33,408 nt of DNA from Monosiga brevicollis MX1 (lineage: Eukaryota > Opisthokonta > Choanoflagellata > Craspedida > Salpingoecidae): positions 199,795 to 233,202 of the forward strand of contig NW_001865047.1 in the NCBI RefSeq assembly GCF_000002865.3. The letters are read 5' to 3'. Shown here piece after piece: positions 219-29,712 of the stretch. Made by a program: the position numbers and the translations under genes. The notes below the pieces were generated by a model. The model did not search any database. It was not told the origin of the DNA and saw nothing but the letters and a program-made list of their open reading frames with translations. Each line of letters opens with the position of its first letter. The first letter of the stretch is position 1.

Positions 219-322
219 GGGTGTTTTCCTCACAGCCCACACGGCCTCCGCCGCGACACCCTGATGCACCCGGGTGTTTTCCTCACAGCCCACACGGCCT
301 CCGCCGCGACACCCTGATGCAC
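219..322. repeat. two-copy 53-bp tandem repeat
   Basis: A 51-base unit at 219-269 recurs without mismatch at 272-322, giving a period of 53. It lies just past the stop codon of the CorA-like gene, in its 3' flank. Both copies start with GGGTGTTTTCC and end with CTGATGCAC. The perfect identity indicates a recent duplication. Confidence 0.9.
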
Positions 323-397
323 AAGTGAGGAGGGCAAAGGGAACGCCCGCTGGGCAGGCACGATGACCACGGCCCGAGCATTTGCCCAATTATGACA

Positions 398-8280: not shown

Positions 8281-9914
8281 CTAGTTAGAATCAGCCTCGT
8301 ACTGCCAAGGCAGGTTGAGAACCTCGAGAGGGAAGTCATCGGGAAGGGCCGGGGGCTGGAACTCAGCCGAGTCGCCACTCTGATCGGGGACGTAGGCAGA
8401 GAAGGCGTAGATGAAATCAGCCTTGGCAAAGCCGTTGAAAGTAGAAGCCGCCGCGCCCGTGTAGGCGCCCATGCCCGCCACGTAGAGCCACTCGCCGACG
8501 TCCAGGTCAGGGAGTTGGCACGACTTGGCAACGCAGTCAATGCTATCGCAAGTGGGGCCCCAGACGGTGCTATTGTACTTCTTGCCCGTGGCCTTCTTGT
8601 AGTTGAGGGGCTGGAGCTCGACGTCAGCGTGGTCAAAGATGATGCAGTTGAAGGAGCCATACACGCCATCATTGACAAAGTAGTTGACCATGGCACCGGC
8701 CGGGATGGTCTCAAGCTCATCGGCATCAAGCATACCCTGGAAGGTAGTCTCGGAGGGCGAGATGTCACCGCTGGTCTCGGGAGCCACGACGCGCTTGGCA
8801 ATGACGCTGAGGGCCAGGGTCATGGCGTTGGCGGCGTAGTAACGTCCAGGCTCGGCAATGAGGCGCAGGCCTGACACGTCGCTAAAGTGGTTGGCGACAG
8901 CATCGCGGATGGAGTTGGCGATCGACTCGAAGCGCACCTTGGGGGTGCGACCAGCAACGGCCTCGCCAGGGAAGCCGCCTCCGACGTCGAGAACGGTAGG
9001 GGCAAAGCCATAAGCTTCGGCGTCGCGGAAGACCTGGCGGGCCTTGGCAATGGCATCATCGTAGACAGCGGCATCGGTGCAGCCACTGCCAACGTGGAAG
9101 CTAACGCCAGCAAGGTTGAGACCAGTGGCCTTGCATGCCTCGATCAACGAGGTGGTCTGCTTGCCGACGACGGCGCCAAACTTGAGGCCGAGACGGCAGG
9201 CCGACTTGCTGTCATCGGCGAGGATGCGAAGGACGACCGAGGCCTCGGGGTAGATGCCAGCGATCTTGCGGAGCTCCTCAGCAGAGTCAAAGGTCATGAG
9301 GGTGACGCCAACCTCCTTGGCGTAGCGAATGTGTGAGGCGGGCTTGCAAGGGTTGGCATCTATGGAACGGAAAAGGAAAGCCCAGATGTGAGATTTGTTG
9401 AAGAGCAAAACAAGAAAGAACAAGAACAAAAGCAGCAAACGCTGAAAGACACCTGCGGGCGTGTGGACGAGCAAAGGCAAGGGGATCAAGGGAAAACCAA
9501 CGTACAGATGATGCGTTCGGGGGTGACACCAATGCCGAGGACGGCTTCAATCTCAGCACGGCTGGCGCAGTCAAAGTTGGCACCGAGGGAGGCGAGGCAG
9601 CGAAGGATCATGGGATCCGGGTTGCACTTGACGGCGTAAAAAGGGGTCACGTCAGGCAGCTCCTGCTTGAAGAGGTGGTGTTGGCGATAAACCGAGCCGA
9701 GGTCAACGAGGAAGAAGGCGTGCTCCTCCTTCATGACACCGGCCTTGATGACGTGCTTCAGGGTGGAGCGGAGGTGATCATGGCGGTTGCCCTTGAGCGG
9801 GATGGCCGCCAAAGTAGGGGTTTCCTCATCATTTTCGGGTTTGTCTTCAAACCCCAGATAATCCTCGGGCAGGTCGGCCTGGATCAGACCAATGGGGGCC
9901 TCAACATCAACCAT
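8281..9914 (-). CDS. ODC1: ornithine decarboxylase
   Basis: Pyridoxal-phosphate enzyme converting ornithine to putrescine, the first committed step of polyamine synthesis in the cytosol. Exon 1 is 9914-9506 and exon 2 is 9359-8281. The intron splits the Tyr codon of IIYANPCKP, a highly conserved ODC motif. The product is 495 residues against about 461 in mammals, the extra lying mostly in the N-terminus. Visible landmarks of fold-III decarboxylases: the PLP lysine in PFYAVKCNPD, the SFHVGSGC strand, the glycine loop GGGFPGEA, the phosphate-binding EPGRYY, and the catalytic Cys-Asp in GPTCDSID near the C-terminus, which favours ODC over arginine decarboxylase or antizyme inhibitor. The start ATG at 9914 gives MVDVEAP. 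The C-terminus ends in WQYEADSN. GA and GT microsatellites lie upstream. Confidence 0.95.
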
Positions 9915-10078
9915 CAGGCTTGGCGGGGGGGGGCACAAGAGACCGGAAGGAAGTACACTCCAAAACAAGTGAAAGCTGGCCAGTGACCAAGATTGTCGAC
10001 AATTGCTTGCGAAGCTTGCTGCACACTGAGGAGCGCGTTGGGAAAATGCCACCAACGCCCGCTTCGATCGAAGAAATA

Positions 10079-10236
10079 GAGAGAGAGAGAGAGAGTAAAG
10101 AGTACAGAATGTGTCTTGAGTTGATGGGGAGATGGCAAGGGAGCAAGTCGGGGAAGCGAATAGGGTAAGCCGACACAACAGTAAGCAAGTAACCGTCCGT
10201 TCACAGTCCGCGTGTGTGTGTGTGTGTGTGTGTGTG
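10079..10236. repeat. (GA)n and (GT)n microsatellites upstream of ODC
   Basis: A GA run at about 10079-10095 and a GT run at about 10212-10236 lie in the presumed promoter or 5' UTR of the ornithine decarboxylase gene. Confidence 0.85.
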
Positions 10237-10374
10237 GGGTGGATGTTACTGAAGATCACCAATGACACAAGCATGCATACGAAATACAAAAACAAGCATA
10301 TGCAAACCAGCTTTGTTTGATACACTTTCAATGGTTGTTGCAGTCAAGCAGCTTGTCCTTGGGGCAGATTGCAG

Positions 10375-12278: not shown

Positions 12279-12768
12279 GACGGCGGTCGTCGGGTCGGAG
12301 TTTAGCAAAAGTGTGTGATCAAGCTACAAAAGTGCCCAACGCTCGCGTCAACCGGCGACAAAGCAACAAAGCAACGCTCCTCCTTGCGGTGCACTCTTTT
12401 CTCTTTTTGATTTTTCCCTTTTCGGGGGTTTTCCCTTTGGGTTATGCTTGTGGCTGTGTGGAGTGTGTGGAACAACGTGGTGGGGGGCACCAAACGTGTG
12501 AAAGAACAAAAGAGCGTAGTAGCAAAGTCCTTTTCAAGAGTTGTGTGTCTTGTTTTTCAGCAGAAAGTTGGTCTTGAATTGGGATCGCGGCAAAAACCTG
12601 GCCTAACTTATTCGTGATTTGCATTCAACCGTAGAATAATGAAAAAGAGTTGTTGTTGTGAGCCACGAGGATCATAAATTTGCTGACATTGAGAAACAAA
12701 AACAATTGAGGTATATATGTACTATTATCTCATCCAGCCCACAAGCAGTGCATTAGCTTGCGACCATC

Positions 12769-12909
12769 GATGCCGTGGCCGAGTGGTTAAGGCGTTTGGC
12801 TGCTAACCAAATGGACTCTGTCCGCGTAGGTTCGAATACTACAAGACGTTGTTCATTGGCTTGATTGGTCTGTACACCATCGAGCACAACGAATATCCTG
12901 CCGGCATCG
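12769..12909 (+). tRNA. tRNA-Ser(GCU) with an insert in the T-loop, copy 1
   Basis: Cloverleaf parts in order: acceptor GATGCCG (12769-12775), D-arm GCC/GGC around GAGTGGTTAA, anticodon stem TTTGG/CCAAA with uninterrupted loop CTGCTAA (anticodon GCT), long variable arm GGAC-TCT-GTCC (class II, as in serine tRNAs), T-stem GTAGG and T-loop TTCGAAT (12831-12837). Then 59 extra bases (12838-12896) intervene before T-stem strand CCTGC (12897-12901), acceptor strand CGGCATC (12902-12908) and G73, the serine discriminator. Without the insert the RNA is 82 nt, normal for tRNA-Ser(GCU). The A box is perfect; the B box (GGTTCGAATAC) has one mismatch, caused by the insert. A T4 run follows. A second copy lies 427 bases downstream. 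Confidence 0.85.
12838..12896 (+). other. hairpin-forming insert (candidate ectopic intron) in tRNA copy 1
   Basis: The 59 bases between T-loop and T-stem 3' strand fold into a long hairpin. The outer stem is CGTTGT (12847-12852) with ACAACG (12886-12891). A six-base bulge (TCATTG) follows, then a 10-bp inner stem GCTTGATTGGT / ACCATCGAGC with one bulged T, closed by the loop CTGTAC. The exact borders can slide by up to two bases to the left without changing the mature tRNA. Bases CTAC (12839-12842) can also pair with GTAG of the T-stem, giving an alternative T-arm in the precursor. Confidence 0.7.
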
Positions 12910-12917
12910 GTTAATTC

Positions 12918-12929
12918 TTTTGCTCTTTT
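12918..12929 (+). terminator. Pol III terminator of tRNA copy 1
   Basis: Two T4 runs (12918-12921 and 12926-12929) begin 9 bases after G73. Their position after the insert and after the 3' acceptor strand supports that the whole 141 bases are one transcript. Confidence 0.65.
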
Positions 12930-13195
12930 GGCCTCTGATCTCTTGTGCGACCTGAAGAAGTGAGGTGGGCGTCAGGCGGCCAGTATGTCGTAGCCCGGCT
13001 ACCCCCCTGTTTTTTTTTGATGCTTGCTTCCACCGATCAAGTCGGCCGATCTTCCCTTCCTCCTGAGACAGTTCCTGGAGAGAGCAAAGATTTGAACGCA
13101 CAGTTTTTCGTTGAGCAAAATCATGCTGACAATCGAGGCGATTCAAGTAATAAATAAGTTATATAACAAATTATCGTTCGTCGTTATCAACCCTC

Positions 13196-13337
13196 GATGC
13201 CGTGGCCGAGTGGTTAAGGCGTTTGGCTGCTAACCAAATGGACTCTGTCCGCGTAGGTTCGAATACTACAAGACGTTGTTCATTGGCTTGATTGGTCTGT
13301 ACACCATCGAGCACAACCGAATATCCTGCCGGCATCG
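13196..13337 (+). tRNA. tRNA-Ser(GCU) with an insert in the T-loop, copy 2
   Basis: Identical to the upstream copy over the whole tRNA body, with the same insert carrying one extra C (CACAACCG here, CACAACG in copy 1), so the insert is 60 bases (13265-13324). Acceptor GATGCCG (13196-13202) again pairs with CGGCATC (13330-13336), followed by G73 at 13337. The 5' flanks of the two copies differ, while about 20 bases downstream stay similar (T-run then GCTCTT). A TATA-like AGTTATATAAC lies roughly 35 bases upstream. No target-site duplication is visible. Confidence 0.85.
13265..13324 (+). other. hairpin-forming insert (candidate ectopic intron) in tRNA copy 2
   Basis: Same sequence as the insert in copy 1 plus one C inside the 3' strand of the outer stem, which becomes a one-base bulge. 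The inner 10-bp stem and CTGTAC loop are unchanged. Confidence 0.7.
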
Positions 13338-13342
13338 GTAGA

Positions 13343-13349
13343 TTTTTTT
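13343..13349 (+). terminator. Pol III terminator of tRNA copy 2
   Basis: A T7 run starting six bases after G73, a strong RNA polymerase III stop signal. Confidence 0.8.
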
Positions 13350-13567
13350 GCTCTTCCTTGAAGCACGATTGGTGTTTATCAATCAATGTCCCCCTTATCT
13401 CCTTCCTCAGACTTTTTACCCCCTCATCTTCACGGTGTCACGTCGATGAGGGAATTCAATTTTGTAACTCAGGGCTGGAGGCAGTCTAACGAGGTGTGAG
13501 GGACTTGCTCGTGCACGCCAAATGTTCACTGCCGTGTGGCGTATCGGAGACGCTTCAAAGGGGCCAC

Positions 13568-14990
13568 TCACGCCTCGGCTCGAGCGTTCAGCTTGTTGCT
13601 GAGGGAGCGGAGGGCCATGTCGACAGCAATGGTAATGAGAACGCTGGTCACCACCATGCCGGCTTGTGCGGCTTGCGGATAGCCCACACCGTGAAGAGCA
13701 AAGGTCCACAGCGATAAGACGGCAGCCATGTTGGCCTGCAGTCCCCACCGATAACGACACAGTCCATGCACCAGAAGAGCTCAATGTGAGTGGGGCTACA
13801 AGACTGACGACAACAACGAGTCAGGAGACGTGGGGTGTCCCGCGGTTCCAACATACCGCACACGTGGCCAGCTTGCCTTCACCGCGTGCCTGGATGGCGC
13901 GCTTGGGCGCCGTTGAAAAGTAGTCTTGGAAACTGGGGAGGCGGAGGCGGTAAAAGTTGAGTGATGAAGCTGCATGCCTTTGTGTGGTTGCTTTTGTTTG
14001 AATGTCGAGGTCAAAATCAGGCGGGAAGATCTGATGCGCATGTTCCACATACCGAACAATCGCCAGGGTTGCCTGCACGGCAATCTTGATGTAGGCGGCA
14101 CGTCGCCAGAAGGTGCCGAGCGCCGAGCTCAGCGGGCTCATCAGCAACGCTGTCAACATGCCAATGTGGAAGAGCTGGGCGAGGAATGTTGCAAAGCCAC
14201 AGCCGATAAGAGAGCTCAGTGCTGAAGATGGCCTTCATCCTTGTGCTAAACTCACCTTGTCCACTTGGGCATCGAGAAAAGCCCCAAACTTGCCGTCGTC
14301 GCCTATGGGTCATCAAGCCGTGCAAAGAGCCGATTTTGGCGTCAAGCGAGAAAAACCAGGCGAAAAGCCGTGGAGGGAGAGCCGGGCAGCGTGTCCATGC
14401 GAGTTTGCCAAAAAGGGTGTGGCATACCTCCGGCACGGCCCTTGTTGTGGTCGGCGCGGGCTACGGCTCCATCCAGACGATCCAGCATGTCATGCAGCAA
14501 GGCCAAGCCACCTGCAAGTTGACAGATAACGCAGCACAAGCGCGGCACAGTGAGCCTGGATGGTTTTGTTGGTCAAAACTTGCAGGTTGGGGATCAGCAG
14601 GTATGTGCGTGCGTGTCAACGTTACCAACCGGCTGCGGCCAGGTAGGTGGGCGCGGGGGACTGCAGGAGGTGGATGCAGGGGATGAGGCACGCGCCCGCG
14701 GCAAAGGTAATGGCGTTGGGACTGAGGCAGCGCGGAAAGAAGCGCGAGTTGGCCAGGCTCGACATGAGCCGGTTCAACGGGTCATACACGAAGCGATGGT
14801 GCCAGCTCAAGATGGGCAGCGCCAGTGCATCGGGCAGCAACTGCAGCATCACCATGGCACTGGTCTCTATGCTGTGTACTCTAAAGCAGCTCAGCGCCTG
14901 TCACAAGAAACAACTGCCGTCCAGAGAAGCAAGCAAGCAAAAGGGACGCGCCAGCACTTGAGACCAACTGCGGCAGGTGCGATCAATGTC

Positions 14991-15024
<34 letters not shown>

Positions 15025-15335
15025 GAGAGCGAGAGAGAGAGAGAGAGAAAATGAGCCAATGGCTCCATACACAGACAAAAGGGAGAGATAGAGGAGAGAG
15101 AGAAAAAGAATAGAGAGAGTGCGCGTTGTGGAGCCCTTGGTAGTGAATCAGTGTAAGCCATGGTCTTGAGTCACCAAGCTGGCTGCATGCTCCACTGCTT
15201 CTGCCACCAATCTCGGGCAACCGTCCAGCCCTCCCATAGCATCGGACGCTGGCTGTCTCGGTTCGGTGCACCTCCCCCTCGCTCCGACACCGCGTTGGCC
15301 CCCGGGCCTTTCTTCGCACCAGCACTCGCTGACAT
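13568..15335 (-). CDS. CDP-alcohol phosphatidyltransferase family enzyme
   Basis: Membrane enzyme that joins a phosphoalcohol or phosphatidyl group from a CDP-linked donor in phospholipid synthesis. The family signature is assembled across introns: DRLDGAVAR (exon ending near 14431) and, two residues into the next exon, GKFGAFLDAQVDK (near 14310-14262), i.e. D-x2-D-G-x2-A-R ... G-x3-D-x3-D. Upstream the exon at 14871 has FVYDPLNRLM and CLSPNAITFAAG, typical of the first membrane segment. Downstream exons give FHIGMLTALLMSPL and a last exon with two hydrophobic segments ending NARAEA at the stop (13568). First exon and start (ATG 15335, MSASAGAKK; or 15392) are less certain; the only acceptor keeping the frame is CACAG before 14871. 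Fifteen residues separate AR and G, where eight is usual. The substrate cannot be told. Confidence 0.75.
14991..15048. repeat. (GA)n microsatellite in an intron
   Basis: Nearly pure GA run with scattered GC interruptions, inside the first intron of the CDP-alcohol phosphatidyltransferase gene (between 15175 and 14871). It yields artefactual Glu-Arg and Leu-Ser reading frames. Confidence 0.9.
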
Positions 15336-29329: not shown

Positions 29330-29605
29330 GAGAGACTTAAAGAGAGCTTGAGAGAGAGCTTGAGAGAAAGCTTGAGGGAGCTTAAGAGAAAGAGAGCTTG
29401 GGAGAGAGCGTGTGTGTCAAGAGGAGAGCCAAGAGGCGATGAAGAGGAGACCAGGGTGAGGAGAGCAAAGAGGAAGATGAGGACCATGGCAAACATCCAT
29501 CCTACGTAACCTCCCATATGTGTGCGTGTGTGGCATTGACCAAATTTGGAAAAAGTGTGAGAGAGAGAGCTTGAGAGAGAGAGAGAGCTTGAGAGAGAGA
29601 GAGAG

Positions 29606-29645
<40 letters not shown>

Positions 29646-29712
29646 AGAGAGAGAGAGAGAGAGTTTGAGAGAGAGTTTGAAGAGAGAGAGTTTGAAGAGA
29701 GAGAGAGAGATT
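29330..29712. repeat. GA-rich repeats with AGCTTGAGAG units
   Basis: Two blocks (about 29330-29410 and 29560-29712) of GA dinucleotides interspersed with GCTTGAGAGA and GTTTGAGAGA units. They lie in the gap between the PH and Arf-like genes. Confidence 0.85.

Follow-up and report, generated by a model that had tools for sequence, protein, structure and literature searches.

Two loci in the window, a 33,408-nucleotide stretch of Monosiga brevicollis MX1 DNA, are very probably working nuclear tRNA-Ser(GCU) genes, each interrupted by an ectopic T-loop intron at position 59/60 and spliced to an 82-nt tRNA. Both loci (copies A and B) have the anatomy and base pairing of a complete tRNA; no intact copy is present in the 39.47 Mb of genome searched, genes resembling Sen2 and Sen34 are encoded, and disruptions of the same kind recur in other tRNAs of this organism. 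An earlier note on this DNA had proposed that a nuclear tRNA gene of a protist close to animals carries an ectopic intron here, and the absence of an intact GCU gene, two more families with T-arm inserts and one permuted family all support that proposal.

Anatomy of the tRNA-Ser(GCU) genes

Copy A was read directly in the 5′ to 3′ direction at 12769-12909, where the parts of a class II tRNA-Ser(GCU) had been described as complete, and all of them were found in order: the acceptor strand GATGCCG, the A-box TGGCCGAGTGGTTAAGGC, the loop CTGCTAA, the variable arm, the T-stem strand GTAGG and the T-loop, split as TTCGAA/T. The 59 bases that had been said to split this loop lie between positions 59 and 60 (Table 1). 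On the far side of the insert are T60, CCTGC, CGGCATC, G73 and a T-run, so the complementary strands, the discriminator base and the T-run do stand 3′ of it as the earlier note had claimed. The anticodon loop is likewise unbroken in the sequence, and an insert at 37/38, the canonical position of eukaryotic tRNA introns, is therefore absent. In both copies the acceptor pairs 7/7, the T-stem 5/5 (with one G-U), the D-stem 3/3 and the anticodon stem 5/5; with all tested exon pairs kept, neither copy has the broken pairs or degenerate exons that would mark a pseudogene.

Splicing in silico of copies A and B gives, in each case, an 82-nt product that ARAGORN recognizes as Ser(gct), and the predicted 82-nt tRNA with a 7-base T-loop is what removal of the 59 bases leaves in copy A. 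The T-arm of the spliced form is identical to GTAGGTTCGAATCCTGC of the intact Ser(CGA/AGA) genes of the same genome. The insert boundary is ambiguous by two bases, in that cuts at 58/59, 59/60 and 60/61 yield an identical product. When the unspliced loci were submitted to ARAGORN, both copies were again called Ser(gct), with the T-arm closed falsely on the first insert bases, and the Rfam model RF00005 matched the loci over model positions 8-63 only, at 33 bits.

Copy B (13196-13337) starts 427 nt from the start of copy A, and the two share a 128-nt ungapped repeat that is 99% identical. The insert is 59 nt long in copy A and 60 nt in copy B, a difference of a single base in 60. Close to the gene, five of the six bases before it and about 20 after it are common to the two copies; farther out, where identity is 28% (−60 to −7) and 21% (+23 to +80), the flanks are unrelated. 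Selection would account for near-identical inserts amid unrelated flanks, as could gene conversion or the recent copying of a short unit.

Table 1. Features of the two tRNA-Ser(GCU) loci, in positions of the window.
Feature	Position	Strand	Remarks
TATA-like element upstream of copy A	12712-12718	+	at −57; usual range in this genome −42 to −28
Copy A 5′ exon, positions 1-59	12769-12836	+	ends GTAGGTTCGAA
Copy A A-box/D-arm TGGCCGAGTGGTTAAGGC	12776-12793	+	exact pattern match
Copy A B-box core GGTTCGA in 5′ exon	12829-12835	+	after GGTTCGAAT: insert bases replace CC
UUCG (54-57), 5′ strand of proposed 4-bp central helix	12831-12834	+	constrained fold
Copy A 59-nt insert (putative intron) at 59/60	12837-12895	+	bounds set by the T-arm GTAGGTTCGAATCCTGC of intact Ser(CGA/AGA)
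CGAA, 3′ strand of proposed central helix	12890-12893	+	constrained fold
3-nt bulge UA/U at predicted 3′ splice junction	12894-12896	+	constrained fold; putative cleavage site
Copy A 3′ exon: T60, CCTGC (61-65), CGGCATC (66-72), G73	12896-12909	+	sequence
Copy A T-run, Pol III terminator-like	12919-12922	+	sequence
TATATA upstream of copy B	13160-13165	+	at −36
Copy B 5′ exon	13196-13263	+	sequence comparison
Copy B 60-nt insert, one extra C before CGAATA	13264-13323	+	sequence comparison
Copy B 3′ exon	13324-13337	+	sequence comparison
Copy B T-run, terminator-like	13344-13350	+	sequence

The frequency of fortuitous pairing was estimated from 12-nt sites able to pair with the 5′ strands of the T-stem and acceptor, G-U being allowed. 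The window, with 66,794 positions on its two strands, has five such sites, two of which are the real Ser sites; other loci, some of which overlap, have six in 524,786 positions. The chance of a site within 100 nt is thus ~0.15%, before G73, the identity of CCTGC with the paralogues and the recurrence in tRNA-Cys are counted.

Outside the coding part, the disrupted genes resemble ordinary ones, since TATA-like motifs and T-runs have similar frequencies in the two groups. Among the 15 disrupted genes, 11 have a TATA-like motif that begins between −42 and −28 (Ser 1/2, Lys 3/5, Cys 2/3 and Thr 5/5), as do 12 of 15 intact control tRNA genes chosen by the authors, the background being 28 of 9,518 window positions. 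A T-run of at least four starts within 17 nt of every disrupted gene (15/15) and of all controls but one (14/15).

Elsewhere in the window, a gene of the pyridoxal-dependent ornithine/DAP/arginine decarboxylase type lies at 8284-10343 on the minus strand, in two overlapping frames that are presumably exons. An identical 51-bp direct repeat is found at 219-322, its copies 53 bp apart start to start, and GA-rich simple repeats are located at ~14990-15050 and ~29540-29710.

Search for an intact nuclear tRNA-Ser(GCU) gene

The earlier note had suggested looking for an intact tRNA-Ser(GCU) elsewhere in the genome, and that search, run over 57 contigs totalling 39.47 Mb, returned no intact nuclear GCU gene. 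A DNA query with the whole gene found eight places, namely the two window copies with their insert and six other Ser genes, which align to the query over 8-75 or 8-68 only and have the anticodons CGA, AGA and TGA; the same query over the 39.47 Mb found no insert sequence outside the two Ser(GCU) genes. The class II A-box, with up to two mismatches allowed, occurs at 15 places, of which 14 are exact and correspond to eight Ser and six Leu genes; among all of these the GCU anticodon is confined to the two window copies, and the one inexact place gave no tRNA. Because the 39.47 Mb searched holds no intact synonymous gene, the two Ser(GCU) genes would have to work. The published M. brevicollis assembly is ~41.6 Mb, larger than the sequence searched, and the remaining ~2 Mb could contain an intact gene.

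A Ser(gct) gene is present on contig C57, which was taken as mitochondrial from its size (76,568 bases, the length of M. brevicollis mtDNA); 17 tRNA genes lie within 40 kb of its start. That gene is no substitute for a nuclear one, because a mitochondrial gene serves another compartment. A Ser(gct) with a 77-nt intron called by ARAGORN on contig C22 (locus L082) was rejected as a GCU gene, as it reads better as a tRNA with a CAT loop. Read in this way, the tRNA-like sequence there (232-397, minus strand) has the loop CTCATAA, an anticodon stem interrupted at 29/30 by 94 nt and a T-stem with one mismatch (C50-C64); it is possibly another disrupted tRNA, or else a pseudogene.

Splice-site structure and splicing enzymes

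With the cloverleaf imposed on the Ser precursor, the exon bases UUCG (54-57) can pair with CGAA of the insert, and a bulge of 3 nt, UAU, separates this helix from the T-stem. A helix and a 3′ bulge of this form belong to a bulge-helix-bulge (BHB) splice site, where the cut would fall at UA/U. This arrangement is the best fold of copy B once the cloverleaf is imposed; for copy A, a competing CGTTG/CAACG stem equals the proposed motif (−44.9 vs −44.7 kcal/mol). The 5′ half of the motif consists of a loop only, where a 5′ bulge with an inner helix does not form. Neither Ser copy, nor any of the eight Cys and Lys copies, adopts the full cloverleaf as its free minimum-energy fold. In the Ser precursor the free fold pairs GTAG with CTAC of the insert, and forcing the cloverleaf costs 3.6 (copy A) and 2.7 (copy B) kcal/mol relative to it.

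Sen2-like and Sen34-like genes were identified by matches to PF01974 on contigs C41 and C42. PDB matches mark the C41 gene as Sen34-like and, via its catalytic exons, the C42 gene as Sen2-like; a phmmer query with a different Sen2 exon gave no match. Ordinary anticodon-loop introns are present in this genome in Tyr(GUA) and Pro(CGG), and given these introns and the Sen2/Sen34-like genes, the splicing endonuclease should be active.

From these elements we infer transcription, cleavage, ligation and use in translation along the following route. Pol III would transcribe the entire Ser(GCU) unit, served by the A-box, the retained GGTTCGA core, the upstream TATA-like element and the T-run. The precursor would form the T-stem GTAGG/CCTGC and, across the bulge, the 4-bp helix in which UUCG (54-57) of the exon pairs with CGAA of the intron, and the Sen2/Sen34 tRNA splicing endonuclease would cut after A59 and within the 3-nt bulge (UA/U). 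A tRNA ligase would then join the exons to give the 82-nt tRNA-Ser, which would decode AGC and AGU.

Other disrupted tRNA families

Inserts at 59/60 are also present in the three tRNA-Cys(GCA) genes, one on contig C17 (locus L118, from 292, plus strand) and a pair on C52 (two copies at L119, minus strand), where they measure 23, 19 and 19 nt. All three keep 7/7 acceptor and 5/5 T-stem pairs, and each insert ends in TATA before T60. Their exons are identical; in its 5′ part, the insert of the C17 copy is unlike that of the C52 pair. No intact or further tRNA-Cys(GCA) was found by DNA query of the 39.47 Mb, and the folds of these genes have no clear BHB motif.

Five tRNA-Lys(CUU) genes with a disrupted T-arm were found, four at L040 (from 455, 876, 1599 and 2155, plus strand) and one at L039 (~728-628, minus strand). 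Each has a normal 5′ part, with the 7/7 acceptor complement farther 3′, and removal of 15-16 nt at 59/60 together with 12-35 nt at 65/66 made all five recognizable to ARAGORN as Lys(ctt). The second insert forms a hairpin, its sequence varying from copy to copy. A DNA query of the 39.47 Mb gave these five genes and Lys(TTT), with no intact Lys(CTT). A 2018 tRNAscan-SE survey of the 218-scaffold M. brevicollis assembly lists, in the portion consulted, one gene per lysine codon and five CUU pseudogenes (PMC6188563). Those pseudogenes are probably the five disrupted genes described here, and the intron claim for Lys is weakened because the survey reports an intact Lys(CUU) gene.

The tRNA-Thr(AGU) loci, also five in number (L115, plus; L116, one plus and two minus; L117, minus), have the 3′ half 35 nt upstream of the 5′ half in a 107-nt unit that is identical at all five. 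When the halves of one unit were joined, ARAGORN returned Thr(agt). This layout reads as that of a circularly permuted tRNA, with the predicted junction in the anticodon loop at ~37/38, where the BHB is weak. A TATA-like motif precedes the 3′ half at all five loci and the 5′ half at none, and a T-run follows the 5′ half at all five. No ordinary Thr(AGT) was seen among the 26 places that match the A-box pattern with one mismatch. Salpingoeca rosetta appears to be without a Thr(AGT) gene in the consulted portion of the survey (PMC6188563), a gap that would be expected if the gene is permuted there too. The Thr(AGU) loci also gave five Y RNA-like (YrlA) Rfam matches of 28-30 bits, under the cut-off of 69.

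The genome scan with Rfam RF00005 returned 63 rows and missed ordinary tRNAs, and it was supplemented with B-box and A-box patterns and DNA queries. Genes for Ala(AGC), Gln(CTG), Leu(AAG), Arg(TCG, CCG), Gly(TCC), Pro(AGG) and Ile(TAT) were not located by Rfam, the A- and B-box patterns or the DNA queries, of which only Ala had its own; such genes could be disrupted or divergent, or could lie beyond the assembly. A fragment on contig C50 (L106, 767250-767700, minus strand) reads as the 3′ end of a tRNA-Asp alone. Overall, the nuclear tRNA genes of M. brevicollis are likely to be of an archaeal or Cyanidioschyzon-like kind, with T-loop introns in Ser(GCU) and Cys(GCA), introns at both 59/60 and 65/66 in the T-arm of Lys(CUU) and a permuted Thr(AGU), such that decoding of AGY, UGY and ACY would need a relaxed splicing endonuclease.

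Alternative explanations

It is improbable, in our judgement, that both Ser loci are tRNA pseudogenes or tRNA-derived repeat copies and that an intact GCU gene lies in unsearched sequence. The assembly searched is indeed incomplete, but its 39.47 Mb contain no further Ser(GCU) copy, and with two copies only the loci do not constitute a repeat family. In the portion consulted, a review places short D- and T-arm insertions mostly in one of many synonymous copies and supposes these to be pseudogenes (PMC4090602), and the label of pseudogene was given to five Lys(CUU) genes in the M. brevicollis tRNAscan-SE survey, beside one ordinary Lys gene per codon (PMC6188563, likewise in part); in the Ser loci, however, every tested exon pair is intact in both copies, including the strands 3′ of the insert, and the same position is interrupted in all three tRNA-Cys(GCA) genes found.

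The intron could instead be real and the mature T-arm GTAGG/ACTAC, in which case the 59 nt removed would lie between 65 and 66 (AAGACG...CCTGC). This is how ARAGORN and Rfam align the T-arm, and the GTAG/CTAC hairpin does form in the free fold, but the pairing leaves a G53-A61 mismatch. CCTGC, by contrast, pairs in full (5/5) and is identical to the paralogues. tRNAs keep G-C at 53-61. The tRNA-Cys inserts, moreover, begin with TGCGT or ATAAG and do not complete a T-stem in this way, and we regard this placement as very unlikely. Group I and group II introns are far longer than 59-60 nt, and an origin from either was rejected because the insert is far too short.

Least credible of all is a fixed, non-functional transposon insertion, for example of a Dada element, which targets tRNA genes. 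CGAATA stands at both ends of the insert, and its 6 bp would suit the 6-7-bp target duplications of Dada elements, of which Dada-1_MB is listed from M. brevicollis (PMC3706591, portion consulted). The same repeat is expected from the UUCG/CGAA helix, since UUCGAA is its own reverse complement, and removal of an element with one CGAATA would leave a 9-nt T-loop rather than the standard 7. No terminal inverted repeats were seen by eye in the insert, which the whole-gene DNA query placed only in the two Ser(GCU) genes.

Comparison with known systems

Eukaryotic tRNA splicing is usually described as limited to the anticodon loop. Canonical introns lie at 37/38 and are presumably removed by the same endonuclease; the Ser(GCU) insert differs from them in position. 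We found no report of ectopic T-loop introns or permuted tRNAs in choanoflagellates or other opisthokonts among the open-literature papers listed, going by their titles and abstract openings. If the intron reading is right, this would be the first opisthokont case known to us, perhaps older than M. brevicollis given the missing Thr(AGT) gene of S. rosetta, and, in this choanoflagellate, a single-celled member of a lineage that is sister to animals, a Sen2/Sen34 enzyme much like that of animals would be able to act elsewhere in the tRNA, or would newly have come to do so. Published gaps in choanoflagellate tRNA sets, recorded as pseudogenes or missing genes, may then be disrupted or permuted genes invisible to standard finders.

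The earlier note had placed ectopic introns in archaea, Cyanidioschyzon and nucleomorphs, which agrees with the portions consulted of three published accounts (PMC3978253, PMC4090602, PMC9602550), on which the following comparisons draw. According to the same accounts, permuted tRNA genes occur in archaea, Cyanidioschyzon merolae, green algae and a nucleomorph, and the 2014 review among them considers such genes to be so far confined to certain clades (PMC4090602). C. merolae, like M. brevicollis, combines nuclear T-loop introns, as in tRNA-Ile(UAU), with permuted genes in one genome, and has a BHB-type junction (PMC9602550, PMC3978253). It is, however, a red alga with a compact genome, and its motif is hBHBh′, whereas in Ser(GCU) nothing beyond the helix and the 3′ bulge is clear; its processing was followed by RT-PCR (PMC9602550), whereas the Ser(GCU) intron is predicted from sequence.

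The nucleomorph of Guillardia theta also has D- and T-arm inserts, including a T-arm insert in tRNA-Cys(GCA); many are without a defined BHB, and their excision was confirmed by RT-PCR (PMC3978253, PMC4090602). Those inserts are 3-24 nt long and belong to a remnant algal nucleus, in contrast with the Ser inserts (59-60 nt) and Cys inserts (19-23 nt) of M. brevicollis, a free-living flagellate. Among archaea, Pyrobaculum and Thermofilum have tRNA introns at various positions, and the permuted junctions of Thermofilum pendens fall at 59/60 as well (PMC3978253), although the T. pendens genes are permuted there and the Ser(GCU) genes are interrupted in order. The T-loop intron is thus of a known kind; its occurrence in the opisthokont lineage appears to be new, and an essential decoding role for such genes would be unusual.
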